Below, piece by piece: positions 17,989 to 63,269 of a stretch of DNA of 64,000 bases. Under the pieces are notes generated by a model. The model had not been told where the DNA came from. It saw nothing but the letters and a program-made list of their open reading frames with translations, and made no database searches. Source of the stretch: Ascidia mentula. Its lineage: Eukaryota; Chordata; Ascidiacea; Phlebobranchia; Ascidiidae. The stretch is taken from the NCBI GenBank assembly GCA_947561715.1, contig OX387203.1, positions 5,332,001 to 5,396,000 of the forward strand, read 5' to 3'. The translations under genes and the position numbers were made by a program. Position 1 is the first letter of the stretch; each line of letters starts with the position of its first letter.

Positions 17989-20900
17989 CTAGGTGGTCAC
18001 AGCATACTGAGGCAAGTAGCATGATTTGCCTGAATGTGGTTGATTTTTGCTGCAAGTCAAAGAATTCTGCAGTTCAATGTAACGATCACCCAAGTATGCC
18101 TGCAAACAAATTAAATTAGTATATTACAAGAGGAGATTCAGCGCACATTCGATCTAATTTTTTACACTTAAACTCACTTCTGCTGTGCAATTAATGAACA
18201 GAGGAATCAACATTTGAGTGGTGTCGGAGAACAGAAGGTTGGGTTTCTTTGCACTTTTGAACATGTTGAAGGAGATCACAGAGTGCCGACCGAAGTACAA
18301 CTGTGATGAACATATCAAAATAATATCATAAATTACTCAAACATCCACAATTTTATGTTCAATTTCAAATATTATCACTAGAGTGTCAGCGTTTCCCGAA
18401 CTGGAGCTCACAGACCTAGGGATGGGGAGTTATGCAATTGGGCAAAAGCACCCTTCTTATTATATTTATGTGTATTTTGTTTCTCACTCTCTTCTCACTT
18501 TTCTGCATTTTCGAACACTACAACTTATTTTACAACAGGAGCTTTACATAAAGTTTATGTAGGGGTCTGCGAATTTGGGGCTTTTGCAAAGGGGATTTGT
18601 AACTACAGGATGGTTGCAAACCACTGGTACATTAGCCTAAAATATAGTGAAATGTAAAAAATAATCATTTTCCCTTAGCATTTCATACCTGTGCCACATG
18701 AAAAACTTCTATAATATCAAATGGAATATCTCTGTCACTCCCAGTTCTAATTTTTTTCGATACCACAATGGCCCTGGAAGGCATTTTACCAAGATGGCAA
18801 TTGGTGAAGTTGTCAATACTTGTCTGTGAGCCATCCTCACAAAGAAGGGCAAAATCCTGTTTAAGTAAAACAAAAAATAAGTTTATGGTCAGGAAAAACA
18901 CATGGCTTATTGTCCTGTGTTTGTATTATCATATTACTGATTTCCAAAAGACCAGATACAGATGTAAGTGTTACCATAAGGCTAACTGTTATCCTTATAC
19001 TTTCAGATAAATAAATCATACTCACATCTTTTGTCAGATTGCCAAGTTCCAGGGGCTTGTCATTAACAAACTTGTTGAAAGCCTGACTTGATGTGAAAGC
19101 AACAGCATTATGTTCAGAATCCAGTAAGCATCTGCAGTAAATATTACTATTACAGTTTCAATTTGTGTCAAGTTCCAGTATGCTACAAATGTTTTGAAAC
19201 ATGAGCAAATTATATTGGAAACTAATTAATATTTTAGCACCTAATATATTAAAAAACACATGGAATCAATCTTCTCTTAAAAAAACTGGTATTTATATTG
19301 GCAAAAGTAGACTCACAAGTTGAAAATAAGCAGAGAAATAAGCATAAAATAGAAACCATAACAATTGACGAGATACACAAACCTTAAAGCACCAGAGAAA
19401 CCTCTATATTTGTCATTTGCACAAGACTTAAAGTTTGGTGGTGATGTGCATCCATGACACATGTCAGGGTGATGTTTATCAACTACACATGTCCCATTCA
19501 TCAGTTTGGTGGTATCCAAAGCTGAATGGCACAATGTCTTGTTGTATATCCTACCTGTAATACAATTATGACTTTTATGAAGCTAACATTTATAATTTAT
19601 GGGGTCCAAGGCCTTGAAGCATATTATGAGGCATTCGGTGATAAAATTGAAAATACGGAGCAAACATAATGGTATCAGTCAACTAAACAATACATTGCTA
19701 TTTACAAATAAAGATTTACTTTTATCTAACAACCTTAATGGTCTAAGATGCCTATACCATTTGTGGTTTTACTATATACTCAATATTGTTGTTCATCTTT
19801 AATAACTTTTTGCATCAAAACACAGCACCTTTTCGATTAAAAATGGGTTGGTCAATACAAGTAGTATACCCACCAGTTTTGTTAGCCAGTAATCCACCCA
19901 CTAAAGGCCAGCTGCCAATGCAAGCTTTCCTGCTTTGTAAACTCTTTGATGTGAGACTTGCAGTGATGTCAGTTTTTTTCACAACAGCCACTAAATATGT
20001 TTCATAACTGCCTGAAAGCAAACATTTAAATTAATATCTAAAACATTACGTTCACTGTGTGATAGCTGATTCAGTGGGATGATCCTGCCTTATCATGCGG
20101 TAGCACGAAACATTTTTGCAATAAACTGTAGAAATACACACAAAAATCTGTAGTGATACAGATGAGGTTACTACAAAAGTCCATTTAAAAAAGCTAGCTT
20201 TATACACTTGCTTCTAAAACACACAAATTATTCTAAAACATACATTAGTTTCAGCATTACTTTTTTTTATAATTATAGACAACAAACCTCACAATAATGA
20301 CTTGATTTTGTTTTCTTACTTACCTCTGTCAATACCAATTTCTGCCATGATTGGCTTCAGTTTATCTTTATACTTGTATAGCAGTGAATGATTCATTGTG
20401 AAAGCATCTGCTTTGTCCTGGTCAATGAGTTCAACACAATCTTCAACAGTCTGGGCCAAAACGCAATCCACTTTTGGCCTTAAGCCCTCCAAAGAGAAAT
20501 ATTTTGACATGTTTGCACATTTTGTATTCTCCTCTTCACCAACACAACACCACTTAATATCTGTTTTCGGAAAAATAGTTGTGTTATCACCAAACTTTTA
20601 AGTTTAGGGAGTATAGGGACCAGTCTAAACTTACTGCGAGGTTTCGGGTGAGACAGAATAGCAATCACAATAACTGTCAAAAGAATGACAGTGGATAATA
20701 CGGCCCATGCCAAGTAATATCCAGTCCTTTTATTTGACTTGTATATAGTCTGTGGAGTGCCCTCCCAATCACGATCAGATTCCACAGGACTCACAGTCAC
20801 CTGGGTTGAAGATGTGCTCGGACCATTCTGTGTCACAATCAAAACCAATAAAAGGGCATTGGGCATAGAATATATTTGCTAAACTCTCAAAGTAGATTAG

Positions 20901-21309
20901 GTTTACAAATCCCTGTTGCATGCATGCTAAAATTTTGTCCATGAACAATTTTAGTTCTACATGACAACCAGCGGTTTAAATTCTTACTGGAACAATTAAA
21001 TTGATGCCATAAATAAACCATTATCTTTTCATATAGGCCTACTATTTCTTAAATAAAGTTACCAAATTAAAGTTTTTCGTAACTATTTGGGACAAACCAG
21101 ATGTTTTACTGGAACAACGTACCGACTACTAATAGCAAAGCACACATAGCCTTTATATAACTGCAAGTTTTTGTTAGTTTAAATCTGGTAATAGCCTACA
21201 TAAATACCATGTCTTTCATTTCCATTACTTCCTCAACTTCTTCATTCATGGGAAGTGGTTTCTCATCATCATGTTCATTTTTGGTCCGTTTGTAGCGAAT
21301 TTTTGACAT
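17989..21309 (-). CDS. membrane-anchored single-lobe transferrin-like protein
   Basis: Nine minus-strand exons: 21309-21208, 20827-20635, 20560-20324, 20011-19874, 19554-19383, 19131-19026, 18856-18689, 18300-18178 and 18099-17989, in phase throughout, 449 aa. Residues 1-70 are hydrophilic with no signal peptide. A single hydrophobic span (about 71-93, LAWAVLSTVILLTVIVIAIL) makes this a type II membrane protein. Residues from about 99 form one transferrin lobe: IKWCCVGEEENTKCANMSKY, DKADAFTMNHSLLYKYKDKL, ETYLVAVVKK, DKYRGFSGALRC, DFALLCEDGS, FGRHSVISFNMF and AYLGDRYIEL. By alignment from memory to human transferrin, the iron ligands look replaced: Asp63 by Asn155, Tyr188 by Phe276, His249 by Arg344, and the YYAVAVVKK pair reads TYLVAVVKK. 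The anion-binding CHTGLGR loop is shortened to CIGSWP. Iron transport is therefore unlikely (inference). Ascidians are known to have monolobal transferrins. The membrane anchor is the unusual part. Confidence 0.88.
18387..18626. mobile_element. possible hAT-like MITE in transferrin-like intron
   Basis: About 240 bp bounded by CAGCGTTTCCCGAAC on the left and GTTGCAAACCACTG on the right. These are imperfect inverted ends of the CAGYG..RAAC kind typical of hAT non-autonomous elements. No clear 8-bp target duplication was seen. Confidence 0.35.
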
Positions 21310-22374
21310 CTTGGTATAAAACTAAATTTTTTGTAGCAAGATTTGTCAAGTAACTTTTTGCTACAACAACTTTCGAAGATTGCTTCTTCAACTTTATTTT
21401 GAAGTCAGACAAAAAATTAAAACCTGTAGGCTACCTGACGAACAAACTACAGATAATTATAAATTATGGATGACTTCCACCAATCGACAAGATTTAGGAT
21501 TGAGGAGAAAGGAAAATAATAAAACTACGGTAAATTGCGAAACAGCTTCCAGCGTTGTTATGATCAACTCCATTTCTCTCCTTTGTCATGTATTTCATTG
21601 TATCTCTGTCCAAAAGGTTTTTCGAAATTGTAACCTTTATTGCCAGACAGAAGGAACTGTTCTACCTTACTCATTTTATCATGAAATAATTTTTCGAAGT
21701 TAAATCTTAACGTTAACGTGAATTGTTGTATTTTCACAAAAATATTTTTCATTTGGGGAATCTGTAATATGGCGGAGTAAGTTGTACTTAAAGTCATTCG
21801 TGCAGAACACAACAACACATGCCTACATCGAGTGTCGCCGTTGGCAATACAGAAACAGTGGAAACGTGCGTATGGTTGTGTTTCATAAAACGATGGCCCT
21901 GCGGACAGTTTCTTGGTAATCAAATTGTGGATATGTCACGAGCAGATGGTTGGCTGTGATTTATAATTGGTTTTGGGTATGAACTACTGGCATAATACAG
22001 TTGTTGCCAGTTGAATGAGGTTAAATGCGACAAATGCTTTTTTTAAACACAGGCATCAAAATAAGTGAGGAAAGATGTAGACTGAAGCAAACCAAGAAGA
22101 AGTTTTGTAAATATTCATCGGTTTATTTCAAAGAGCAAAAATACGTACACAAAATGTACAGAAGCATTTCAAACATAAAAAATACAAAACAGAATTTGGG
22201 AACTTTACAATGCAGTATTGCAAAAACATTTCCATAGTGATATGAAGTTTACATGTTATTTGCATGAGTCAGATACAGGGTAAATTGCAATATTATGCTC
22301 ATGCCCCTAGCTATACACAGTTGTTGAACTATTAGCCTCATAGCAGTTTATTGTTTTCTCAAAGTTTAAGCAAA
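21310..22374. other. intergenic, promoter side of transferrin-like gene
   Basis: Lies between two minus-strand genes: the 5' end of the transferrin-like gene and the 3' end of the adhesion GPCR. The roughly 1.07 kb spacing argues against a tunicate-type operon, where spacers are usually very short. A GGAATCTGTAATATGGCGGA string (YY1-like) lies near 21759. No coding exon is supported. Confidence 0.45.
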
Positions 22375-25187
22375 TCAATTGTATCTCAGTGATTTCTTCA
22401 TGGAGCCAATCCAGACTTTTCTCACATGAGTAGGAATTACACAATTTCCCACAAACATACAAAAACCCTAAAATGCATAAAAACATGCCATATGTGGGCA
22501 ACATATTTATGGCTATAGGTAGAAAATATTGCAAATGCTACGATTTTGTTAAATCATTTAAATTTAGGACAAAATTTAGCAGCTTTTTCATCCCTAATTG
22601 GAAAAATGTCCTATGCAGAGGATATTTGTTTTTGTCAAATGTTTTTTGGTAATCCACAAAAAAAAAATTAACCAATATATTAATAAAGCAGTTGTTAGTC
22701 TTGGCAAATCTGACTTTTAACCAATGACAATCAGGATTTCTTACTTGTAATGATGCGAGAATTGAAAACATCCATGCTGTGACCAGCTTATTTGTAGAAT
22801 TTTGGGAAATTAACATCGCGAACCCAAACACCCAAGTCATACCAGTCATGATTATGAGCATCGTTGCAATCTTAAAATCTCGCCAGGCTGATCTTGGTGG
22901 GTTGGTTGTTGTTGCCTTAAAATGTGCGGTGATGTCATTTTTAGATCAAAAACAAACAATGATTTGAATTGTGATTTTTGGTGCTTGGCTATACTCTGTT
23001 TAAATGTTCACTTTGCACATGGCAGTGGTGATGTACTTAAAATTAAAATCAACGTATACTGGTTGTTACAATCCTTACCATGTTTCTGGTACAAGTAAGG
23101 TCTTGTAGTATGGTGAGAAAAATGTAACAGTTGAAGATGAAAAGAATACCAACAGGAACAAGAAATCCAAGGTGTAAAGAATATTTGTGTAACCAACACA
23201 TGTTGCTGGCTTTGTAGACAGATTCAAAACTACAGTTTTCTGGTAGAATAACAAGTTACATAATACGAAGTTGTAAAGGAAAGTTTACTAGTTACAGTCA
23301 TATTTTAAATCCTAGAAAAAGTAATTGCAGACTTTATTACATTTACAGCAAAGCAAATTGGTTGTTTTGAAACAAATAGGAAATGCCCTTGTCATTGTAT
23401 TTATCCAACCTGGTTTGTTTGAATGAAAGTCAATGAATCCAGCAATAACAACGTTCATTGTAACAATTAGCAGCGGAACAACATAAGCTAAAAAGGCAGA
23501 AATCTTCCACAGATTAGGAGACGGCATCATTATCTACAAAAATATGTAAAATCAAAACGAAAACAGATCAAAATTTCTCAGAAAACGATACAAAAACTCA
23601 TTAGCAACAAACATGTCGTTAACATTACCATGACAAATGCTTGATACATGTTGTATGCATTCATTGACATCCATAACCAGGATGCAAGCAATAAGTAATG
23701 AAGAACTGCAGTTATGCAGTAACACACAACAGTGTTGCTGACTTTGTTAATTCCAAACAAAAATATAATGTCAACAAGAAGCAAGCAGACACAAATGTTC
23801 ATAATATACACTGCAGGTTGTCGACATCTGAGCTCTCTATGATTCAAAAAAACAGTATTTTTGTAGATGGTAGTTTGACCTTCAGCTTTTTATAAAAAAA
23901 ATACACATTTTTAGGCAATATTCTTCATGGTTGTGTAATTGCCCATTTTATTTTGTATTTTTTTTTAATTGTTTTCAAAACACATATAACTGCATGCAAA
24001 CCTGAAGTATGTATGTATAAACAAGGTTGCAGTTGTGCCAAAAATTGAAAAAAAGCAGCCAACTGTTGAAATAACTCCCAGAACAAGTTTGGAATGAGGA
24101 ATGTAGCCCTGTGAAAAAAAATTACCACAGAAATGACTCACAAAGAACACACAAACACTTCATTTAAAATGAAAATATTTTCTCTTGATGCAGGTGATTA
24201 TGGCACATTGTGTAATTTAGACTAATTAGCTAAAAAATAGACATAATTTTGTTCTATCCTTGTATTTTTTAGGCTTACCAGCAAAACAGAATAAGCTACT
24301 ATTCCCAATGCAGAGTTCTGTTTTGCTTCTTTAAGTTTTTGTAAGTTTTTTACCAAATTTAGGCATTGTGTTTTATTCTCAGTTTGGTTGATGTTGGTTA
24401 CTATTTTGCAATCTTCCAGTTTTTGTGGGGAACCACTTAATCGGATTTTAATCTAAAAAAACACATGCGTTACCAATTATAAAACTCTGCAAGAAATATT
24501 TAAGCTATCAACAGATCTATGCTGTGTATACAATTACCACTGTAATGTGTTTGTTTGTATTTCCTTCATTGACCAGAACAAAAGTTGCATTTAATGTCCC
24601 AACCCCTTGTATTGTTGATTGATTCTTTATGAAATCAGTGTACTCCAGTAGCTGCTTGCTTTCAATCTGAGCATTTTCATCAAGCTTGAACATAATTATT
24701 TCTCCTTCATTGAACATGTTGATTTCCAAAACCTTGCGTAAAAGCAGCAAATTCACTTGACATCATTATTTGTTGTGATAGTGATAAACTGGAATATGTA
24801 TGTGAATGGGATTCCTTATTTTATATTAGGGTCCGCATCTGCTGTTCCAACAGCAATTTATATACATAGCAATAGAACAAATATATCACAAATAAGATCA
24901 ATGGAACATACACAAATGTCTTCAGTTTTATCCTCGAAGCACATTTGCAATTCTTGATATTCAGGGCAGGTGTTGTTGCTTGTTTCTTAAAAGTTGAGAA
25001 ATAATGTTTAAAATCAGAAAAAAATAAAAATTTCTTTACCATTTTTTGCGTTGTCAATAGCTTGTGTAAGGTTCTTGCCTGTTTTACAACAGTCTATTCT
25101 GATACACAGTACAGCAATCACAAGAAACAAGGCTTGGACAAACTTGTTCATTCTCTTTCGTAAATTAGCTTCTTCATCAATTGACAT
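22375..25187 (-). CDS. adhesion-type G protein-coupled receptor, short ectodomain
   Basis: Ten minus-strand exons: 25187-25040, 24985-24914, 24755-24538, 24452-24279, 24108-24002, 23836-23629, 23533-23410, 23239-23079, 22915-22745 and 22467-22375, all in phase, 491 aa. A signal-like segment follows Met13 (MNKFVQALFLVIAVLCI). A short cysteine-bearing ectodomain comes next, then seven spans. Family marks seen: RELRCRQPAVYIMNICVCL (TM2), LASWLWMSMNAYNMY (TM3), PNLWKISAFLAYVVPLLIV (TM4), CWL plus a hydrophobic span (TM5), GMTWVFGFAML (TM6, Trp432), and SLQGFCMFVGNCVIPTHVRK (TM7 and helix 8). The juxtamembrane region keeps two Cys (161 and 176) but lacks the usual Trp pair and the HL/T autoproteolysis triplet. 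It ends SALGIVAYSVLL, resembling a tethered-agonist stretch. The receptor is probably not cleaved (inference). The ligand is unknown. The tail after TM7 is very short. Confidence 0.9.
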
Positions 25188-25799
25188 CTAAGTTGAAGTG
25201 TTGTGTTGAGTTTACTGCGTGGAGTTACAAACTTCTGTTCACCGTTTTTTTTTTATATGGCATTGTGGTGTGAAATATGCAAACCTTTTGTGAACTCTGA
25301 TGAATTGGTTTAAACTTTAAAATTTGCATGGCCTTTTTTCAACGTGTTATCAATACAGTCGGAAAGAAAGGTTAACCTTTTGTTGATCTCCATGTTTGAG
25401 CATGTTATTACTTTCCTTATAGATATTACTGTGCTTGCCCACCATTTTATGTTGGAGCAGATTTGTAAATGATTAAAAGTTCCTATATTTCAAAGTCTGC
25501 TTACTTGTTTGGTTATCCATTCTTGCAGATTAAACTTTTGTTTAAATGAGTTATGTGCAAATAAATTTCCATGCATTGTTGTATTGCTAGATGTGTTTGT
25601 TTATAAAATTTATATTTTATTCATGAAATGCAACAATATTATATGTTTTATAAAATGTGTTTAATATGTTTGACAAGATTGGGTTGTCAGCAGGCCAGCG
25701 AACTTTGAACTCACATTATCACAAACACTTAGTTAATAATTAATTTATTGTCCAGGCGCTTTGCTGCAAATGATATGATAAACTTACACTGCTGCAGGT
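25188..25799. promoter_or_regulatory. 612-bp head-to-head spacer, likely divergent promoter
   Basis: Separates the start codons of the minus-strand adhesion GPCR and the plus-strand carnitine octanoyltransferase. It is AT-rich and has no open frame of note. A CTGCTGCAG acceptor-like string sits two bases before the downstream ATG at 25800, consistent with trans-splicing or a 5' UTR intron. No specific operator recognised. Confidence 0.45.
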
Positions 25800-28700
25800 A
25801 TGAAGGCAGTATTTGCTGGGAATGGACATGCCATAAGACTTTTCACTGGCTTACGTAATGTTAAAAATTCACCTTTAATTGTCAAGCGATTTGGTCCCAA
25901 AAGATTTGCAAGCATGTCCAAAGGAACGTTTGGGTATGAGGAGGAGTTACCGAACCTAACAGTTCCTCAATTGGAAAACACCATTGAAAAATACTTGGAT
26001 TCTGTGAAAGCAGGTTTGTTAAACAAAATTGGCACTTTGCTGACAATTAATCTAAGTAAGTTTCCATGAAATAACTAATTTGCAATATTTTTTATTCATA
26101 GTAAAATGTTGTGTTGTAACCTATTGAATTATCCACTGTAAATCATCATTTTTGTTATTCCTTTTTTCAGTGGCCAGTAGCGAAGAGCTTCAAAACACCA
26201 GAAAAGTCTGTGAAGAGTTTTTAAAGAAAGATGCACCAAAGTTGCAAAAACACCTAAAAAAGCGTGAGAGAGGTAACATATACCTTGCATATTATTCATT
26301 GTGTAATTACCAATAAGCCCGAGAAAAATTTTACACGTTGATTGTGTAGGCTTGTTTATATTGTAATGTGGTCATAGCATTACCTGATTACAAAAAGAAT
26401 GCATTTATTATAATTTGTTTGTTGCAGAACATCGTAATTGGGTAAAGCAACTATGGTTGGACAAGGGTTATCTTGAACTGAGATTGCCTCTTCAGTACAT
26501 AAACTTTACAGGATCCCCTTCTTATTCCAAGCAATTCTGGCCACCCCAGGAAGGAACCCAAGTATTCATGCTAATTATTCATATTCTTGATTATTCCTCG
26601 CAGCACTAAAAATAATTTCATATTGGTTACAAAAACATAGTATGTATGTTCTTTGTATAAAATTTACTTCATAGTAATTAAATTTACTTAAAATTTCACT
26701 GAGGTTCTGTTTTTTTGCAAGTACATGCGCATATTTTCCGGCAATTGATGGAAGAGTATGCAAATTCAATTTGTCAAAGCAGTAGTGTGACTAATTCAAA
26801 GCATTTTTAATTTTTCTGGACTACAATATGTTTAGATTTACTTAGCGTTATATCATTATAGTAAATTCAAAAAACAAAAATATTCTAGCAAAATAAATTA
26901 TCTCACAATCATTTCATGTGATTGTAGTTGGAAAGGATGGCACACAGTATGAACAATCTCGCACAATTTTATTGGTTACTTCACACTGAAAAGGTACAAG
27001 TTGATAAGGGTAGCGGGGGAAACGTCTTTTCCATGGACCAATGCAGGTTTGACTCAACTCAAAATCTTTTACAAACCGCAAAATTTTACACTGTGATACC
27101 AGTACATTTTCTCGTTGAAATAGAACCACTTTCAACACTTGCCAAATACCTCACAAAGGGAAAGATGAATTTGAATGCCATTTCAAATCGTCAAGAGAAG
27201 GAAAAACAGCAAAACATGTGATAGTAATATGCAAGGGTTTTCTGTTCAAGGTACATCTCTTCAGTCAAAGAACTGGTATGCAAGTGTTTTTCTTTTTCGA
27301 TTTCTTTTCGATTATAAACTTTGTCACATTTGCATTTATTTTTGCTTGCTATTACCAAGTTTGTACACATGCAAAAAATTGTATCAATAAATTACCTAAA
27401 CTATTTTTTTTTACTTCTGCTTTTAGGAAAACCCCATACCCAACCCCAGTTGAAAAAAGTGCTTGAATCAATTGTTGATGAATGTAACAGTAGAAATCAT
27501 ACAGCTCCGGGAGTGGCAGCTTTAACTGGACTTGATCGTGACACTTGGGCTGATGTTCATGACCACTTACTACAGCTAAGCGATGCCAATAAACAGAATC
27601 TTGAAGACATTGTGACGTCCATTGGTGTTTTAAGCATTGATGAAGTTAGCGCAGATGTAAGTAATATTTTTTTGTTTCATTGTCTCCAAAAGCAGCAATT
27701 CACAAAAGTTTTGTGCAAGTTTTCAATGTGCTATTGTTGGCATTTTGGAATTTTACCACAAGGTGCATTTTTTGTTGATAACTGTAAATCTAGTAGTTTT
27801 TGCCAAGTCAATTAGTGGACATATTTTTATGTTGTATAGTAGGCCCATCATACAAAGTTTTTTGGCCTGATACATATAAAAGTTTATTCACTGGTTTTCT
27901 GTTTATGTTGATCTGTTTTTTTTTGCTTTGTGTCACAGACCAAAACTGACACCATGTATAATGTGATTTGTGGTGACCCCACACAGAGGTGGCGCGACAA
28001 GTCTTACAATGAAGTGTGGTCTAGAAATGGAACTATGGCATGCTGTTGTAACCATACTGCCATTGATGGTATGGTGATGGTTATGTACATAGAGTTTGCA
28101 ACCATGTTACTTAAGATGTGCGATGGGAAATGGAGTGGATCTATGGATGTTGGTAAGAGTGAAGTCACAACTATTGACATAAATTTAAAAACATTATTGT
28201 TGTAGCTTTTCAATTCAAAGTCCAAATTAAATCATTTGTATTTTGCGCAAAAAATGCCATGCAGTGATAAACACAAGAAACAAAATGTTACGAGCACTGA
28301 TAAAACCATCAAGGCCATAATGGTAGTTGAGCCAGGCGCCATCATTCTTAATCATTGCTCTTCAGCAATTTGTTGCCTTATTCCTTGTAGTAGTTTAGCA
28401 AATATTGCGGAACTCTAATTTAGTAAAGGTTGTTGCACAGAAGAACAACATATATTTTCCAGTAACACGAATGTTGTTAAATTGCTGAATACTGCCCTTC
28501 TGGCAAACTTGTTAATGTTGTGACTTTAAAGTCCTGAACACGGACAACATTGTAGTAACATTTATGGTTTGCAACTGTGGTTTTAGATGACATCAGCACA
28601 ATAAAAGAATTGACTTTTGACCTCAGTGACAAAGTTACTTCGGCAATTAATAAAGCGAAGCAGATTTCTGTGAAATTCAATGATGATTTGTGGTTAAAAA

Positions 28701-40210: not shown

Positions 40211-43200
40211 ATGGACCCATCTGACGCATTTGTATGGATCGATCATGCCAAAACGACAATGAAAAAGATCCACGAGCATCTACATAACTCGCAGCTTTGC
40301 GATGTTACAATTATCGGTAAGAGTAACAAATAAGAAATATTGTGCATGTACAATATTATAAATTTACTGTGTAAGACTTACTGTGGGAAATGCATGAACT
40401 TAATTACTTTTTCTTGCAGTTGGAAGCAAGCGCTTGTCTGCACATCGCCTTGTTTTGTCGTCAGTGTCAGAATATTTTCGGGCGATGTTTAACAGTCATG
40501 TGCTAGAAGCTGTGCAAGAGGAGATTACTTTAACAGACATTGACGAAGATGCCTTTGCTAATCTCCTCGACTATATGTACACAGGTAAAGAATAAACATT
40601 CTCTACGCTAGTTATGAAATTTTCAATCTAATATCCTAAGTTCTAATAGTGTAAAGACTCGCAGATAATGCTTAACTTGAGATTAACTTTATTTTCACAA
40701 TTGCTTTTGTTTAAATTTATTCTAAAACTTTGTTGACATCCTTCGAGGTGGAATATTTAAATATGGTCACCACATAGTAGATTGACATTTTTCATTGACA
40801 TACATTCAGCATATTAAAAAAAAATATAAGGACATGTAAATTCAAACAGACAACTACAAAATATAGGACAAAATCTACTAATAAACCATCTCCAGTGTAT
40901 TATAAAACCTTGTTATTTTGCTTCTTAGGCAAACTTGAAATTAGGGAGGACAATGTAGAAAGGATGGTTGCTACGGCGAACATGCTACGATTGGAGGATG
41001 TGGTCGATGCGGGTTGTAATTTTCTCATGAAACAGCTGCACCCTTCTAACTGTCTTGGCATCAGAGCATTTGCTGACACCCAAAGCTGCCACAAATTACT
41101 GAAAGCTGCTAACTTCTACACTATGGTAACTTATTGCAACAGACTTAAACTGTTGAATGTAAAATATGTTGTATTTATTTGAAAATTGTGGGTTACTCTA
41201 CTGGCATGTATTATGAGATCCGTATTTAAAACTTTTTCATGGGATAATTTTTAATATAAATATTCAGGATCACTTCACAGAAGTGACACAGAACAAGGAA
41301 TTCCTTATGCTGCCTCTTGATCAGGTAAAGATCACATAAACTACATGGTTAAATTACTAATGTTTTGTAATACTTCAAGACCCGCTTTTTGTTTTCCAAT
41401 TTATTGCAAAAAAAAAATATTACAATGCGTAAAAAAATACCTATAGTTTTAAATGAATCTGCAGGTTTGTGAGTTGCTAGCCAGTGATGATGTAAATGTA
41501 CCCACTGAGTGTACCATGTTTGAGGCCCTTCTGCGATGGGTAATCCATTCTAATGAGGAAAGGAAAGTGTTTATGTCTGATCTACTATCTCACATCAGGC
41601 TCACATACATAGACAAAGAGGTATATATTATCCGTGTATGCCAACGTTTTGTGTGCGCACCATGTATGTGCACATATAGTAGTTCATAAGAAAATTAAAT
41701 ATGGTTTATTTGTCAAGTGGGCATTGTCCTTCCGACAGCACCATGGCAATCAATAGGTAAAGTGTTTGGATATAGCAAACAAATGAATCATGTTTTTGAC
41801 AAAACAGAAATATTTATGTAAGGCACATGTTTTTAAAGCAGAATTGTTTTCAAGTAACAGTTGCATGCACAGCAAACTTCCTGTTGCAATAAATAATAAA
41901 TGAGTTTCATTGATTTTTTCTTCTTGGAACGGTGCCTTTGTGAACCTCACCATGAATATTTATTGCTGTTTCAATGGTTTATCCCAAGAGTATTGTTATA
42001 CCTTGGCCAATATTTAAATCAGTCACAGAGTAATGGAGTGTCACAGAGAAAAAGAATCAAATATTTACATAAATAAATTTCGGCCTACAAAAGCAGAGGA
42101 AAATCCTATTTACAAAACAAGGGCAAACTATTTTTGGTTATTGGCATTTGGTTTTATGTTTTATCACTTCTTCATAAATGTAATGTTTACATAGAAGTGT
42201 TACATACCTTGACTGCGATACCGGCGAACCCTATATTTACACGGCATATTTTGTTTCAATAAAAGTTTGTCAATCAAAACTTTACAAAGAAATTCCATTA
42301 ACATTTTGTGTTTAGTATGTGGCTGATGTGGTCCAAACCAACCCACTGGTGTGCCAAGATCTTGCTTGCGAACACCAGGTTATCGAGGCCCTCACGCACC
42401 ACATGCTACCTGAACGCCGCCCTTGTCTTCAGCAACCTCGAAAATCCACCACTGGATATCTGTATGCTATTGGTGGCATGGACACTTCGAAAGGTTGGTT
42501 TCTTCCTTATCTTGTTATAAGATTGATCTCTCTGGTAGTGCTAAAACACTTTCTGTAGGCAGGCTTTATTCTTAAAAACATTTTTACTACAATGATTAAG
42601 CAGTGTCAGAAAATGTTGTTGTTTTTTCATTGATAAAACCTACCCTCTGTATGCAAACAGAATGTGTCAATCAGTGTAGGCAACTTGTGTGCTATAGCAA
42701 CTTTTGCTGGTGATTTGTTTGGCTGTCAGCTAACTGCTATGCAATTTTAATGACTGGTAATATTTACTGTTGTAATAAACAAAGCAAACTTATTAAAAGG
42801 AAACCTATTAATTTATGTTGTTCAGGCTGGTGAACTTTCTGTTTTATGTGTACTTTACTTCATGATCTTAATGCTTTCTTTATGCTTTTTTGCTTCTTCT
42901 TTGTCGAAACACAAGTTGGTTTTACATGTAAGTATCCTCACAGCCTTGGTAAATGTCACAATTTGGTTGACCTAAAAGTGTGTTTGTGTTTGCTTGCCTG
43001 TTAATTGTAGACATACCAGCAGCTGTTGTGATCGTGTAATGCCATAATTCAAACACACCATGGAGTCACTGCTGGAAACACATAAGCATGCAACACAAAC
43101 TGTGCCAAGTATACTACGGACAACGCACAACAATTTTTTGGGTGATGCCTGAAATTCCAAACATGTACATTGGCATGCGAGATTGTGAAAAAGATGTAAA

Positions 43201-46200
43201 TGAAAACAAACGGCAACTATTTAGCACTCCAATATAAATGAAACCTCGGTAAATCACAAAATACTGACGTGACTGCAGTTTGGAAGTCCTACTGTATGCA
43301 ATGAAATGTTTGTCTGATATGGTTTTATGTGTTTACAATCAGTGTTACTGTTCCATTTTCTTTAAAATCGGTTTAAATTTTGTGACCTTGAACTTGCAAA
43401 GTGAATTGATTCGGTGTATCTTCTACTCGGGCATGTGTATGGCATGTTGTAACAGAAAATTTACACAAAATTATAGCAGTCTAATGGCAAAAATCATGAC
43501 ATTTAAAAAAATCTGTGTTTGTAAGAAATGTTGTAACACGTTTCTGTATATATCTAACACCCATTGAGTAGTAATAAAACAATTTCTCAACTGGATCTAT
43601 TCAAAAAGAAAAGAGTATTATGTTTTACTAACAACCAATCATGGTATCTGTGTTAAGCATTGTAAGAATAACCATATACTTTATTATACAGGTGCAACCA
43701 GCATAGAACAATACAACGCAAGAACAAATCAATGGAAACAGATTGCTCACATGACTGGGCGTCGCCTGCAATTTGGTGTTGCTGTCCTCGACGACAAACT
43801 TTATGTCGTTGGTGGCCGAGATGGCCTGAAAACAGTTAACACGGTTGAGTGTTTTAACTCACGAACCAAAACATGGAGTGTGATGCCCCCGGTGGGGACA
43901 CATCGCCATGGTCTTGGTAAGACTTGTATAACTTATTGGTGAATGTAGTCTCAATGAGACAATGATGTAATAAGGAATAAACCAAGTCTTCCTAAAAAGT
44001 TTAAGGCCTGCCGTTACGTTTTATATTCTGTTTTGCCACAATTTTCATTGTGATTTTGCAATACTTTGTTATGTTTTTCATAACATTCCAATGAAAAACA
44101 TGCTAAATATATTGGCAGAACGAAAATAACAATGGGTTATTTTTACAACCGAAATGTCCTTACCTCATTTAATCCAACACCCTTATCTTGTTTAAGCTGT
44201 GGCAGTCTTGAATGGTCCAATGTATGCTGTGGGCGGTCATGATGGTTGGAGCTACCTCAATACAGTGGAACGATGGGACCCGCAGGCCCGGGCTTGGAAT
44301 TACGTCGCTCCCATGTCTGTCTCACGCAGTACTGTCGGCGTTGCTGTTCTAATGGGAAAGTAAGTGAACACGGCGATTGTTAATGTACGATATCAGTAAT
44401 ATTGACCGTAGGCCTTCAAGTTAAAATGCTTGGTGTAGACCGATTAATCTGTCAATGACGTAGTTGAAGTGCAGCAAGAGGTATTTCTGTATTTGTAAAC
44501 AAAAATCATCCTGAAGCTGATCGTTTGCCGCTCTCTTTGAGTTTATCTCGTTAATATTGATTATATACACACACTTAACCATAATTGTGCATACAAATTG
44601 TTTTCCTCGTGGTACGTGGTGTACGTTTTCTTGGTGTTGGTTGTGTGCTGTACCAGTATCATTACCCTGGGGAAGCCTTGTTGGATATCAGGCGAAACGT
44701 CGGTCAATAAAGTTACGTTTTTATAGTGCCAGAAGAACAGACTATTAAATAACAATATTCCTGACAGCAACAGTTACATTATATTTGTTTTCCTTGTGTT
44801 AACGCTTAAATCGTTTACCATAATACATGTATAAAGTAAATGACGCCTACGTAGTTGTTAGTTTTGTCTGTAGTTTCTTCCGAAACGCCATAGAACTGAA
44901 CACCGTTAAATATAGGTAATTGTTATCCCAGTATGCTATACACCAACCAACCTATATGTTGTAACTAGGCTTTACGCCGTTGGAGGCCGTGATGGCAGCT
45001 CCTGCCTTCGCTCAGTTGAATGCTTCGACCCACATACAAACAAGTGGACAAACTGTGCCCCGATGTCAAAGAGAAGGGGTGGGGTCGGTGTTGGTGTTTG
45101 CAAAGGTCACCTCTACGCCATCGGAGGTCACGATGCCCCAGCCAGCAATCAGATGTCGAAGCTTTCCGAGACTGTTGAAAGGTATGTGGTCGTTTTGTTG
45201 TATAGGGAATATTTTTAAATTAAATAATTATGGACTCTCTCGACTTAAAAAAGTTGTAGCGTTGTGACGTTCGTCGTCAACTTTGGATTTGTTTTATCCG
45301 ACGAAATTAGCTATTGGTGTAATGTTCCCGTTTTATCGCCTAAATCACGAATTTAGGTGAGCATTATTCCCTTAAACGTTGCTTTTTACAGACTCTAACG
45401 ATGGTTCTTAGCGAAATACATTTGTCAATAAAAGCCAATAGATTTCAACTTTAGAAATACATGTATCCATAAAAATGTTAACTTTTGGTAGAGTTATTTT
45501 CCAATCAGTTTTCGGGTTAAATAATATCGTGTTATGGTTTGATACGTATTTTTGTATTTAGATATGACCCCAAGATAGACCAGTGGATGACAGTTGCATC
45601 CATGAGCGTTCCGAGAGACGCTGTGGGAGTCTGCATGCTCGGTGGACGGCTCTACGCTTGCGGGGGATACGATGGTACGACTCAAACCTACATCAAGTTA
45701 TACAAAGCTATTTAATATAGGCTGGTGTATAACAAAATACTGTAGCGGGACAATTTTTTTGCCAGTGGCTAAAAAACCTTTACAGATGCACATATAGGTC
45801 TATGCAACATAGAAATCTGAGCGAATGTTAGAGGTATAATTTGCAGTAGTACTTTAATGTCAATATATTACCAAAAAATAACAGTTGGTTGCCTTGTTCA
45901 CACCTGACTGTTAACATTTACATTTATTTCTATGTTACATGGACTTATACGTATGTATTCTGGTGACTGTTCTTTAGAATCAACTATATTACCATCCAAG
46001 TTTGGCTGTAGGTATTATTGTAACTTTCTATTTAAAACCCTTTCTATTAAGATCATTGTTAAATTAAAGTCGAATATTTTCCCACAGGCCAATCCTACTT
46101 GTCCACGTGCGAGTCGTACGACCCCCAAACCAACGAATGGACGACTGTGTCTTCTCTTATCACTGGCCGTGCAGGCACCGTACTTGTTCATATCCACGGG

Positions 46201-47991: not shown

Positions 47992-48175
47992 TGCATAAGG
48001 AGATTAGTCAGCTAATGATTTTACAAAATTTAAGAAAAATTTGTGTATGTCCCCCTGTTTTTTCTGGATATTTTGTTTAGGTTGAGCCGCGGATGTGTTC
48101 GCCGATGATAATGCCGGGACACGTGCATGGTTACGAATTAAGATAGGATGTTATCAATCTACTGGGACATTAACT

Positions 48176-48612
48176 GGGTTATACCCGGGACATATACATT
48201 ACATACGGGAACTTATTATATCTCGCTCATGGGTTATACCCGGGACATATTCATTACATATGGGGACTTATTATCTCATATCTCGCTTATGGGTTATTCC
48301 CGGGACTTATACATTTTACACATGGGGACTTATTATATCATATCTCGCTTACAGGTTATTCCCGGGGACATATACATTACATATCGGGACTTATTACATC
48401 ACATCTCGCTTATGGGTTATTCCCGGGACTTATACATATGGGGACTTATTATATCTCGCTTATGGATTATTGCAAGGACATATTCATTACATATGGAGAC
48501 TTATTATATCATATCTTGCTTCTGGGTTATTCCCGGGACATATAGGGTCTGATTATATCATATCTTGCTTATGAGTAACTCCAGGGACATATAGGCCTAC
48601 ATATGAAATCTC
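48176..48612 (+). repeat. tandem repeat, 48-62 bp unit, about 7.5 copies
   Basis: Units begin GGGTTAT(T/A)CCCGGGAC and contain CATTACATATGGGGACTTAT and ATATCTCGCTTAT. Starts are near 48176, 48231, 48291, 48353, 48414, 48464, 48524 and 48572. Long frames through it on the plus strand come from the absence of stops in the unit, and the translated repeats are not conserved in one frame. It is a minisatellite, not a gene. Confidence 0.85.
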
Positions 48613-55610: not shown

Positions 55611-58600
55611 ATGTCTTCCAATAGTTGCTGTTCTGGCTGTTGCTGTGGACCACAGGTGGAACAACCAGGTCAACATGGTGAACACCCAGGTACAAAATAT
55701 GAAAAGGCTTTCAAAACTTTGGGGGTAAGTCAAAAAAACATTTATTTATTACATTAAAAAATTTAAGTTTCACAACCAACATGCTGACCTACATATATAA
55801 AAGCAGCATGTATTGCATGAAAAGTTTTGCTCATATATTCTTACTAGTATGTATATTGTCAAAGAAATAAATAAATCTGTGGATAATGTGTCTCAAGACA
55901 TGTTGCTTTTGACAATAAATATACAATGTCTGCTACCACATGCATTTAAACAACACTGTAGTTTTAAAAAGAAAAGTGTACAAGCATTGTTAAAAAAAAC
56001 ATCAATTATGTAACGAAACATGTCATCATTTCAAGAGCCAATTGTGATGATTGATCATATGTCATTGTTTGTTTGTCCACTTATTCTGTTTTTAGATATC
56101 ACAGATAATGCTTGGTATATGTTCAATTGTGTCAGCTGTAATTCTATTCGTTTTGGCTGGAGTGAGCATGGATTTTTCATATGGTTTAATATGGACAGCT
56201 CCAGGAATTTGGTGTGGAGCATTTGTAAGTAATTGCAAAATTTTCTATTTTTAAGATTTGTGTTAGTTATTATCACACATTTATTTATATGGCATCTTTA
56301 ATAGTTTCTAGCAGCGGGAATTCTAGGAACCAAGTCGGCAACATACCCATCTCAATGCATGGTGAGCCTTAAGTTTATAATACAAATAGTGTTGTGTTTT
56401 TTGTATTCGTTCGAATCATTGCAAAACCGTGGAATGAAAAAAAGGCGAGCACACACGGATTTATAGGAAAGTAAATTGCATTTAAAATACCACGCACACA
56501 AACAAGAATCACGCAGAATGGACCCTCTCATCAGGTTTAATAGTGAAACCGCTCTGGAGGTTTGCGCGATCGCTTGCCGATTTGTGGATTGCTGGAACCG
56601 AACGCAGAAGTGCTGGGATTGGTTGGAACGTCTATTTCTGGAGACGGGGACTGCAGAAATCTTCCTTCCTCCACAGGTTCAAAATCTTGGTAAGAAACGT
56701 TTCGAACGGGTAACTGGTCAATGTGACGTCGCCACATTGGACCTCGGGAAAACACTTCAACATGAAACCAGGAACCCAGCGACCATCCTTGCTGTGTCTC
56801 GTCTGGCCCATGTATAAAGCATAACATGGATCTCCGGCTTTAAAAGAAATTGTATCTTCGGATGTTTGTGTCGACGTTACTTGATTACCTTTCATTACGT
56901 GCGCTGGTGAAGGTAACAGGGTATCAATTTTTGCTCGGATTTGTCTGCCGTTGAGGAGTTCGCTTGGTGAGAATCCACTAGCGTTGGGAGTACGCCTTTA
57001 CTACAGTAGAAACTCCTGCAATGCCTCTTTAGGGGGTTTGGTTTGGTCCATGTTGAACTTTTGCCTCAAACGCCCCCACAATCGGAACAACATGTTCTGT
57101 CGCCGAGTTAAAACGCCGATTTGACTTCTTCAAAAACGGTTTGTCAACTTTCCTCCATGTCTGGACAAAAATAAAGTTTTCGTTTGTTGCGGTGTCCATC
57201 TCCAATAGACATGCTTTGCCGTTAATGGTAACGGTTACCTCCAACTTCGTATTTGAAGTGACTTTGGGCTTGATCGAAAACAACAAATTGACATTGTCGT
57301 TAGATGCCCGCTTCTTTCTGTAAGCTGATGCTTCCAAATGTTTTATATCTGCAATTGGGTGCAATATGATCTGCTTTTCCGCAGCGGTAGCAAGAATTCT
57401 TTTTCTTGAACTGATCTTGGACGACCGTAGTTGGTGACGTAACAGCAGTTTTCTTTGCATCCCGAACTTTATGCACCGATCCCAGTGTTCCATAAACGGT
57501 TTCCTTTGCAACCTTTGCAGCGTCTTCAGTTTGCATGGCAACTTCAATAGCGCGCGTAAATGTCAGCTTATCAGCGTTGATTTTAAAAATTGCATTCAGC
57601 ACTGCTTCATTTTTTATGGAGCAAATAAACCTTATGCGCAGCGCTTCGTCCAGTGGGTTTCCAATCGAGGGAAAATCACACGTGCCTGCGTCGTGGCGAA
57701 TGCGTGTAGCCAATTTTTGCACCGTTTCCACTGGCTTGCGTTGCATGTTGCTCGAAAACTTGAAACGTTCCCGAATAACAAATCGCTTTGGATCGAACTG
57801 TTCCTTCATAAAGGCTTGGATGTCTGTAAGAGAAAGATCGTTGACGGTCTTTGCAGGAGAGCTTTGTCCAGCCAGATAGGATAAAAGCTTGTGCGCTGTG
57901 GTAGTTTGGTTGGTCAAAAAAAACCTGCGACACTCTCGTAACCTCGACAAGTAGTCGTCCCACGACTCCGATGTTGCGTCAAATGACGAAAAGCTTTGCG
58001 TAGCAACGGAAGGTGAAGCGTTTCCACTTATACCAGCCTTTTCAACCAGGGCAAGAACCAACTTCAATTGTTCTTTGTGACACTTACGTTGTTCTTCACA
58101 ACAACTTAGTTGTTCTTCTCGCTGTTCATCGTGACGTTTTTGCTGCTGTTGCAACAGTTCTTAAATGAGCTTTGCAACTTTTTCTATCTTCGGGCGAACT
58201 AAAATATATTCAAATATCAAACTGCGCATACCTCGTTCAGTCGGTTGATCCTATCCTCGTCACCAATAACCCTGTTGTGTTTCTTTGTATTCGTTCGAAT
58301 CATTGCAAAACCATAGAATGAAAAACAAGACAAGCACACACGGATTTATAGGGAAGTAAATTGCATTTAAAATACCACGCACACGAACAAGAATCACGCA
58401 GAATGGACTGCGGCACATTGTGGCTTGCAAGCGCACTGCTGCTGCCTGTGTACGTAATGAGGCATGACTGCAACAAATAGGATGCCAACAATTGTAGGTC
58501 TTCATATATTTACTCCGTTCAAACCTAAATTTATTAAATTTGAAACTGGTTTGGTGCATTAGAGCAAGGACCATCTCAATCTCTTTTGCATCAAACATCA

Positions 58601-60125
58601 AGGGCATTGCTAAAATATCCACACAGCACAGAACTTACAGTGCAAAACATCAATGTTGGTGATATTACAGATAACTGCAGCGATGGTGGTCACCATATTT
58701 GCTGCACTGTTTTCCACGACCCTGATGTCCCTTGGAATTACTGGTGCTTGTATTGCTGCTGATTATTACAACCATTATTATCCCTATCCCAGTTACAATC
58801 CTCATCCTGGATATAATGTAACTCTTCGGGTAAGAAATTTCATAATTCCTCTCTGAAGTTCATTATTGTTTTTTCTATTTATGAAAATACTGGCAATATT
58901 TGTTATTGGTTTAATTTGGTATTAGCATTTTCTGAAAACACGGCTAACAAACACAAAATATCATGTAAGAATTATAAATCTGGTGACATATTTTCCCACA
59001 AAAACAGTTAAATTGACATGGGTACATATTTACAATTTCAGGATGTACAAATTGCTTTTCAAAGTGTGCTGGCTGTTATCGGTTTTATTGAACTGATCAT
59101 CTCCATCACACATTCGTCGTATTGCTGTGCAGCCAACTGCTGCAGGGCTTTGCCACCAACAACATCCAGTGTGAGTAATTCGACAATGCAGTCATACCTT
59201 GTTAGTCTAAACACCAAAAACTTCTGGAAACCTCACTATTTGCACGAAAATTTCTTTCAAGTGTATTGTACCACTAATTTTTTGGTTTGATTCATCCTAA
59301 AACCCATAATTGAAGCGGTGATGAAACAAGTAATCCGGATTAAGAAAGTCTGACCATGCATACCAAATTGAAGCATTTTACATAAACTTCACCATAGCAT
59401 ATTATCAACCATTAAAAGTTGAGTTGCCTGTTTAAATATTACTGCCATCAACTCATAAAATTTTAATTATGTTACAATTGTGATTTCAGCAAACCTATTT
59501 CACCCCAATCCTAGCACAAGGCCCAGTTCTCACAGCTCAAAATCAATATGGTAAGTGCAAATATTCACATAATTTTTGAAAGTTAAGTGAAACTCAACCA
59601 AGACAATGCCACGGTGTAAAATAAAACAAAATCACTTTTCCTTAATGAAAGAGTCAAGAATGCAAACATTTTTAGGTGTGCCAGAGTACAGGTATCTTAT
59701 TCAAGGACATGCCAATCCTGGATACAATCCAGGTGTTGGTGGACCTCCAATGCCAATTCAGGTATATTAATTTAACCCACTGATTAAAACAAAACATTCT
59801 TTGAAAAATTCAATACTCATACAAAGTTGTTGTGTATGAAACCGATGTGTAAAACCATATGTGCTAAATGTGTGCTTATGTATACATATAAATGTGTGTA
59901 TGCCAATTAAAAGAACACTGCCCAACAAAGTATTCCTACTTTTTGCCAGCATGCACCAGTGAACCAGATAAATCCACAAGATAATCAAAGATCAGCTCAA
60001 AACCAAACACCCCCACCACAGTATACAGTAAGTTTGCAAATATTACTGCCAGTTTACAACTAATAACTGACTTACATCAATAAATTCCATTTGTTTTACA
60101 GGACAAGTCGGTCATTCACGCCTAA
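55611..60125 (+). CDS. MS4A/CD20-like four-span protein, paralogue 1 of tandem pair
   Basis: Nine in-phase exons: 55611-55724, 56096-56224, 56305-56361, 58671-58829, 59042-59170, 59490-59550, 59676-59761, 59950-60027 and 60102-60125, 278 aa. The N-terminus has a cysteine cluster (SNSCCSGCCCGP), a likely palmitoylation site. Spans: QIMLGICSIVSAVILFVLAG, GIWCGAFFLAAGILG, ITAAMVVTIFAALFSTTLMS and AFQSVLAVIGFIELIISITH. The loop between spans 3 and 4 is Tyr/Pro rich (ADYYNHYYPYP). After span 4 come SSYCCAANCCRALPP and a long Pro/Gln/Asn-rich cytoplasmic tail with PPPQYT (PPxY) near the end, finishing DKSVIHA. Intron 3 is about 2.3 kb because an LTR element sits in it; the same intron is 194 bases in the next copy. 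Expression and function unknown. Confidence 0.87.
56390..58475 (-). mobile_element. Ty3/Gypsy-type LTR retrotransposon relic
   Basis: A fossil copy lying on the minus strand inside intron 3 of the MS4A-like gene. The ends read TGTTG...CAACA and are flanked by a 5-bp target duplication AATAG (56385-56389 and 58476-58480). The terminal repeats share about 134 bases of recognisable similarity, the right-hand one being about 203 bp. Interior parts seen: a gag-like region (about 57300-58154) with a CCHC zinc knuckle, an aspartic-protease-like region and an integrase-tail-like region. It is broken, much shorter than a full element and carries several breaks. The repeats differ at roughly 6% of positions by eye, so it is not a fresh insertion. 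Confidence 0.85.
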
Positions 60126-61022: not shown

Positions 61023-63269
61023 ATGTCTTCAAATGGTTGCTGTTCTAGCTGTTGCTGTGAACCACAAGTGGAACAACCAGGTCAACAGGGTGAACACCCA
61101 GGTAGAAAATATGGAAAGACTTTCAAAACTTTGGGGGTGAGTCAAAAAACATTTATTTATTACATTAAAAAATTTAAGTTTCACAACCAACATGCTGACC
61201 TACATAGATAAAAGCAGCATGTATTGCATGAAAACTTTTGCTTCTATACTATTACTAGTATGTATATAGTTAAAGGCACGATTCATTATTTCAAGAGCAA
61301 ATTGTGATGGTTGATAAAATGTCATTATTGGTTTGTCCACTTGTGTTGTTTTTTAGATATCACAGATAATGCTTGGTATATGTTCAATTGTATCAGCTGT
61401 ACTTCTATTCATTTTTGCTGGAATCACCATAGATTTTTCATATGGTTTTATATGGACAGCTCCAGGAATTTGGTGTGGAGCATTTGTAAGTAATTGCAAA
61501 ATTTTATATTTTAAGATTTGTGTTAGTTATTATCACACATTTATTTATGTTGTATCTTTGATAGTTTCTAGCAGCAGGAATTCTAGGAACCAAGTCGGCA
61601 ACACATCCATCTCAATGCATGGTAAGCCTTTAGTTTCTAATACAAATAGGATGCCAACAATTGTAGGTCTTCATATATTTACTCCATTCAAACCTAAATT
61701 TATTAAATTTGAAACTGGTTTGGTGCATTAGAGCAAGGACCATCTCAATCTCTTTTGCATCAAACATCATCCATACAACATAGAACGGATAACTTTAATA
61801 TTGGTGATATTACAGATAACTGCAGCTATGGTGGTCACCATATTTGCTGCACTGTTCTCGGTGACCCTGATGTCGCTTGGAATTACTGGTGCTTGTATTG
61901 CTGCTGATTATTACAACCATTATTATCCCTATCCCGGTCCCACTACTCATCCTGAATATAATTTACCTATGCGGGTAAGAAACTCTTTCATTTCACTCTA
62001 AATTTCATCATTGGTATTTCTATGTGTGAAAATACTGGCCATAATTGTTAACACCAAATACATTTGGTTTAATTTGGTATTAGAATTTCTAACAAAAACC
62101 TTTAACAAACACAAAAAATCATGTAAGAATTATAAATCTGGTGACACATACAAAAACAGTTAAGTGACATCTGTACATATAAAATTTTACATGTTTTAAA
62201 ACTCTATTTACAATTTCAGGATGCACAAGTTGCTTTTCAAAGCGTGCTGGCTGTTATCGGTTTCATTGAACTGATCATCTCCATCACACATTCGTCGTAT
62301 TGCTGTGCAGCCAACTGCTGCAGGGCTTTGCCACCAACAACAACCACTGTGAGTAATTTGACAATGCAGTCATACCTTGTTAATCTGAACACCAAAAACT
62401 TCTGGAAACACACCAAAAACTTCTTTTGGTTTGATTCATTTTAAATCCCCTAATTCAAGCGGTGATGACACAAAGTAATCCGAATCAACAAAGTCTGACC
62501 ATGCATACCAAATTGAAGCATTTTATATAAACTTCTCCATAGCATTTTATCAACCATTACAAGTCATGAGTTACTTGTTTAAATATTACTGCCGTCAACT
62601 CAAAACTTTAATTATGTTACGATTGTGATTTCAGCAAACGTATTTCACATCAATCCCAGCACAAGGCCCAGTTCTCACAGCTCCAAATCAATATGGTAAG
62701 TGCAAATATTCACATACTGTTTGAAAGTGAAGTGAAACTAAAGACCAAGACAAATACCAGGCTGTAATATTGAAAAAAATAATTTTCCTTTTCAAAAGAG
62801 TAGAGAGTACAAACATTTTCAGGTGTGCCAGAGTACAGGTATGTTGTTCAAGGATATCCTAATCCTGGATACAGCCAAGGTGTTGGTGGACCTCCTATGC
62901 CAATTCAGGTATTTCAATTTAACCCACTGATTAAACATAAAATTCTTTGAACATTCAATACTCATACAAAAGTGGCGTGTATGAAACCTATGTGTAAAAT
63001 CACATATGCTAAATGTGTGCTTATACATATATATAAATGTGTGTATACCAATTAAAAGACCACTAGCTAACAAAGAATTCCTACTGTTTGCCAGCATGTG
63101 CGCATAAACCAGATAAATCCACAAGATAATCAAAGTCCAGCTCAAAACCAAACACCCCCACCACAGTATACAGTAAGTTTGTAAATTTTACTGCCAGTTT
63201 ACAACTAATAACTGACTTACATCAATGAATTCTTTTTTTTTACAGGACAAGTCGGTCATTCACGCCTAA
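61023..63269 (+). CDS. MS4A/CD20-like four-span protein, paralogue 2 of tandem pair
   Basis: Nine in-phase exons: 61023-61136, 61357-61485, 61565-61621, 61816-61974, 62220-62348, 62635-62695, 62823-62908, 63095-63172 and 63246-63269, 278 aa, exon lengths identical to paralogue 1. N-terminus SNGCCSSCCCEP; spans QIMLGICSIVSAVLLFIFAG, GIWCGAFFLAAGILG, ITAAMVVTIFAALFSVTLMS and AFQSVLAVIGFIELIISITH; tail with PPPQYT and DKSVIHA. Differences from paralogue 1 concentrate in the N-terminus, the extracellular loops (ITIDFSYGF for VSMDFSYGL; PGPTTHPEYN for PSYNPHPGYN) and the tail. The fourth span and the last exon are unchanged. No LTR insertion in intron 3. Confidence 0.88.

Follow-up and report, generated by a model that had tools for sequence, protein, structure and literature searches.

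A minus-strand gene of the sea squirt Ascidia mentula, at 17989..21309 of the window (the whole 64,000-nucleotide stretch of DNA that was analysed), probably is intact and encodes a type II membrane protein, the outer part of which would be a single transferrin lobe without the ability to bind iron. The single membrane span would act as an uncleaved signal anchor, such that the N-terminal tail would be cytoplasmic and the lobe would be held on the outer side, with some seven residues between it and the bilayer. The lobe would carry several N-glycans. With less certainty, the lobe may have been retained for its stable, glycosylated surface, to which a protein or another non-iron partner would bind, and not as an iron carrier; this role is proposed by analogy with other ligand-stripped transferrins. 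The protein might then serve as a scaffold, receptor or inhibitor.

The gene model has nine exons and eight introns, all of which are GT-AG with phases that close, and 1350 nt encode 449 residues. The spliced frame of 449 codons has no internal stop, and its stop codon ends at 17989. Exon 1 (21208..21309) contains the start codon and encodes residues 1-34, the first part of the predicted cytoplasmic tail; it is an open frame in phase with exon 2, with a weak donor (GTATTT). Exon 1, which has no homology support, appears to be the least certain part of the model. The membrane span is independent of exon 1. Exon 2 (20635..20827) encodes residues 35-98, comprising the remainder of the tail and the span (about residues 72-92), and has an AG acceptor, a GTAAGT donor and an intron of 74 nt (20561-20634) between it and exon 3. 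The lobe begins in exon 3 (20324..20560), which contains a sequon at N115 and, at the position of Asp63, Asn155 in the sequon N-H-S. Exon 4 (19874..20011) encodes Thr182-Tyr183 in the region of Tyr95 and a shortened carbonate loop, C208-I-G-S-W, and exon 5 (19383..19554) encodes a cysteine-rich part with Phe276 at the position of Tyr188. The DNA of this cysteine-rich part also includes a repeat of a 28-bp unit (19440-19493; 1.9 copies, 80% matches). The lobe continues in exon 6 (19026..19131), for which the phmmer match of 2.7e-19 is a self-match, and in exon 7 (18689..18856), which places Arg344 at the position of His249, and it ends in exon 8 (18178..18300). Exon 9 (17989..18099) encodes the final residues and the stop codon, without a hydrophobic tail of the GPI type.

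Membership of the transferrin fold is clear. The Pfam family PF00405 (Transferrin) matches residues 100-425 with 157.2 bits (E 7.9e-46), well above the curated cut-off of 20.3 bits, and the match covers positions 1-324 of the 328 in the profile. No other Pfam family matches the 449-residue protein at E up to 1. A search of the PDB found 94 distinct matching sequences at E up to 0.001, and the top match among those listed is human melanotransferrin (6xr0, E 8.1e-66), whose N-lobe scores 125.1 bits against the window protein and whose C-lobe scores 99.6 bits. The lobe retains all 12 cysteines that do not vary among five iron-binding reference lobes. A tree of eight sequences joins the window lobe to the C-lobes with support of 0.344, which does not fix its placement. 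When phmmer was run on the six-frame segments of the window, only the gene's own exons rose above the inclusion threshold and no further transferrin exon was found, which argues for one lobe and for no paralogue within the window. Searches for relatives gave 13 pattern matches in viral contigs, none of them confirmed, and 66 in prokaryote genome contigs, of which the one confirmed is an archaeal binding protein rather than an orthologue. That euryarchaeal protein (DAHR01000010.1, L001:4692-5672, plus strand) scores 95.5 bits with Phosphonate-bd and 79.2 bits with Transferrin and adjoins ABC ATPase-like and permease-like frames. By alignment its Asp, Tyr, Tyr and His ligands are intact and so is the carbonate Thr, and Lys replaces Arg124; the protein may be related to the transferrins and bind iron.

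The metal and carbonate site was compared with that of six reference lobes, five of them taken as iron-binding, by a multiple alignment and by six pairwise alignments. The first-pass annotation had claimed that Asp63, Tyr188 and His249 are replaced by Asn155, Phe276 and Arg344, and these replacements recur in the multiple alignment and in all six pairwise alignments. It had also described the Tyr pair as TY. T182-Y183 is indeed present, but which of the two residues sits at the position of Tyr95 is ambiguous: the multiple alignment places Thr182 there, and the pairwise alignments place Thr182 (one of six), a gap (two) or Tyr183 (three). The annotation was right that the anion loop is shortened, to CIGSW as compared to CHTGLGRSAGW in many transferrins, with the loss of Thr120 and Arg124. 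The multiple alignment has a gap at both positions, and so do five of the six pairwise alignments at either one (the exceptions are A207 and S211), such that neither is ever Thr or Arg. Intact ligands elsewhere in the lobe, which the annotation had raised as a challenge to its own reading, were not found in the alignments, save for the ambiguous Tyr95. Judged from the alignments, at most one of the four metal ligands is left, and that one may be Tyr183; at least five of the six metal and carbonate positions are changed or gone.

The loss is concentrated at the site. There are 88 columns that are invariant in the five iron-binding lobes, and the window lobe keeps 53 of the 82 that lie off the site and none of the six at the site (Fisher p 0.003); therefore, the loss of the site exceeds chance. 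The inactive C-lobe of melanotransferrin keeps 78 of the 88, and the portion of PMC7804310 available puts the inactivity of that lobe down to three changes, at the Asp, Thr and Arg positions. The N-lobe of cod melanotransferrin likewise has Arg instead of the ligand His, according to PMC3125230. Canonical iron binding by the window lobe is very unlikely.

The cleft might instead have been remodelled for another small ligand or ion, as in the binding of saxitoxin by saxiphilin, such that the anchor would make the protein a surface receptor or sink. The shortened carbonate loop and Arg344 do alter the cleft while the cysteines of the fold stay, but a conserved new pocket cannot be read from one sequence and the sequon at Asn155 would leave little room in the cleft, and this alternative is judged unlikely. 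If Asn155 is glycosylated, a sugar would stand at the place of the metal and the cleft would be held open. A bolder proposal is that the gene encodes a receptor or co-receptor of a new kind at the cell surface, in which a transferrin lobe was placed behind a type II anchor exon and the cleft is now gated by sugar or binds protein; it is rather doubtful.

The preferred reading, that of an anchored lobe outside the cell, depends on the topology. The first-pass annotation had claimed a single transferrin lobe C-terminal to a hydrophobic span, in a signal-anchor layout. The first part is borne out by the extent of the PF00405 match, and the second is supported by one strong span after a tail of about 70 residues. 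In Kyte-Doolittle windows of 19 residues, hydropathy reaches a maximum of 2.75 at windows that start at residues 73 and 74, and the best window elsewhere reaches 1.11. On an insertion scale, the span scores -3.33, as compared to +8.37 for the best window elsewhere. Given that it begins about 70 residues in, the span is consistent with a signal anchor rather than with a signal peptide that is cleaved, and the lobe starts about seven residues past it. All 17 cysteines are C-terminal to the span, as expected if the lobe side meets the oxidising lumen. Eight N-glycosylation sequons follow the span, as compared to a mean of 2.9 in 10000 shuffles (P 0.0038) and to one to three in each of the six reference lobes; the first 70 residues have neither a sequon nor a cysteine. 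The sequon at N115 aligns with N38 of melanotransferrin, at which a glycan is visible in the crystal structure, as reported in the part of PMC7804310 available. Three Lys or Arg residues lie within 15 residues of the span on each side, and this equality means that flanking charge does not decide the topology. Residues 1-71 were scanned for YxxPhi, dileucine, NPxY, acidic cluster, RxxS and ITAM/ITIM motifs, and none of the six is present. A GPI anchor was rejected, since the last 30 residues are not hydrophobic.

An anchored product could be avoided by alternative splicing or by another start. Transcripts that skip the membrane exon had been put forward in the first-pass annotation as a threat to the anchor, and this case was rejected: when exon 2 (20635-20827) is skipped, exon 1 joins exon 3 out of frame and meets a stop after 60 residues. 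The region 20561-26500 was also scanned for hydrophobic starts with a donor that fits the phase of exon 3. The scan yielded 11 candidates, nested at five places, as compared to a mean of 0.4 in 20 shuffles, and two of the five places lie in or beside exons of a secretin-type receptor, at 23.3-23.9 kb. A read-through start at 20866, in intron 1, is in frame, keeps the span and adds a short hydrophobic stretch before it. Signal-like starts at 25187 and 25151 (exon 25187 to 25040) have donors in phase with exon 3, as do weak candidates at 22504 and 22486, and the true product could thus be secreted from an upstream signal-peptide exon joined to exon 3, with the span of exon 2 absent or confined to a minor form. 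However, the starts at 25187 and 25151 lie beyond the receptor exons that encode 7tm_2 (match at 23578-23889) and most likely belong to that receptor gene, which makes a secreted form of the transferrin unlikely. The good splice sites of exon 2 and its 74-nt intron to exon 3 speak against secretion as well, and the chance that the secreted form is the true product is put as low.

Several known transferrins have features in common with the anchored protein. Saxiphilin and the inhibitor of carbonic anhydrase, both among the PDB matches of the window protein, are two-lobed and secreted transferrin folds in non-iron roles, and the ascidian monolobal nicaTf is likewise secreted. Saxiphilin carries thyroglobulin domains; in the window protein, no Pfam match to thyroglobulin type-1 insertions was found at E up to 1. 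The fish otolith matrix protein (OMP-1) is a closer parallel than either saxiphilin or the inhibitor, given that it is both single-lobed and ligand-stripped. Like the window protein, OMP-1 has one lobe and has lost the iron and carbonate site, and the available text of PMC3125230 describes the cod protein as single-lobed and as having lost every key residue for iron and carbonate but one Tyr. Unlike the window protein, OMP-1 is described there as a secreted, otolith-expressed matrix protein, and that text describes no membrane span. The monolobal nicaTf cited in the same text resembles the window protein in that it is a single lobe from sea squirts and differs in that it keeps the iron-binding residues, according to the portion of PMC3125230 available. 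Melanotransferrin (6xr0), as described in the available part of PMC7804310, is similar in that it can be membrane-bound, has an inactive lobe and shares the sequon at N38. It differs in its two lobes, its C-terminal GPI anchor and, in the human protein, an N-lobe that binds iron; the window protein stops after one lobe.

The likeness to OMP-1 suggests that the protein could be a membrane-held matrix or mineral protein that acts in the manner of the otolith protein. The anatomy of the lobe is alike, single and with the site residues lost, but the available text of PMC3125230 gives the otolith protein a signal peptide and reports no membrane span, and the span of the window protein speaks against secretion. 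A matrix role is judged improbable. The least probable reading is that the gene is a relict, a redundant transferrin copy that drifts after loss of function. In its favour, 29 of the 82 non-site columns that are invariant in iron-binding lobes have also changed. Against it, 449 codons run over nine exons uninterrupted by a stop, the splice sites are intact, none of the 12 invariant cysteines is lost and the losses concentrate on the site (p 0.003).

In a single lobe that has lost its ligands, a type II anchor would amount to a distinct path out of iron transport for the transferrin fold, and it would offer a one-lobe system in which to ask what the fold does without metal. The tunicate lineage also has iron-binding single-lobe transferrins. 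The membrane-held transferrins known to date are, to our knowledge, attached by a GPI anchor at the C-terminus, and those that have lost their ligands are secreted. A single ligand-stripped lobe is already known from the otolith matrix protein, as far as the available text of PMC3125230 describes it, and the type II anchor looks new. No type II membrane-anchored transferrin was found in the open-licence literature searched, a scope that mostly leaves out subscription papers.

Other features of the window were also noted. Exons of the secretin-type seven-span receptor lie on the minus strand at 22500-25190, with 7tm_2 at 23581-23889 (40.5 bits), and the likely signal-peptide start of that receptor is at 25187 or 25151. 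Carnitine acyltransferase exons lie on the plus strand at 25782-28205 (PF00755, E 7.2e-16 and 9.3e-10, in two frames), and a BTB-BACK-Kelch gene lies on the same strand at 40799-45218, in three frames (BTB 5.6e-4, BACK 1.4e-13, Kelch_1 2.2e-21). A scan for tRNA genes found none. The sequence at 48175-48595 is a tandem array whose periods are about 49-55 and 110-123 bp. On the minus strand at 57300-58160 is a Gag-like frame, perhaps from a retroelement, in which a zinc-knuckle scores 18.3 bits, as compared to a curated cut-off of 20.8. The frame at 58614-58853, the only first-copy frame scanned of two near-repeated hydrophobic sets, has no Pfam match. The two sets, at 58614-59290 and 61732-62444 on the plus strand, resemble tandem copies of a gene for a multi-span membrane protein.
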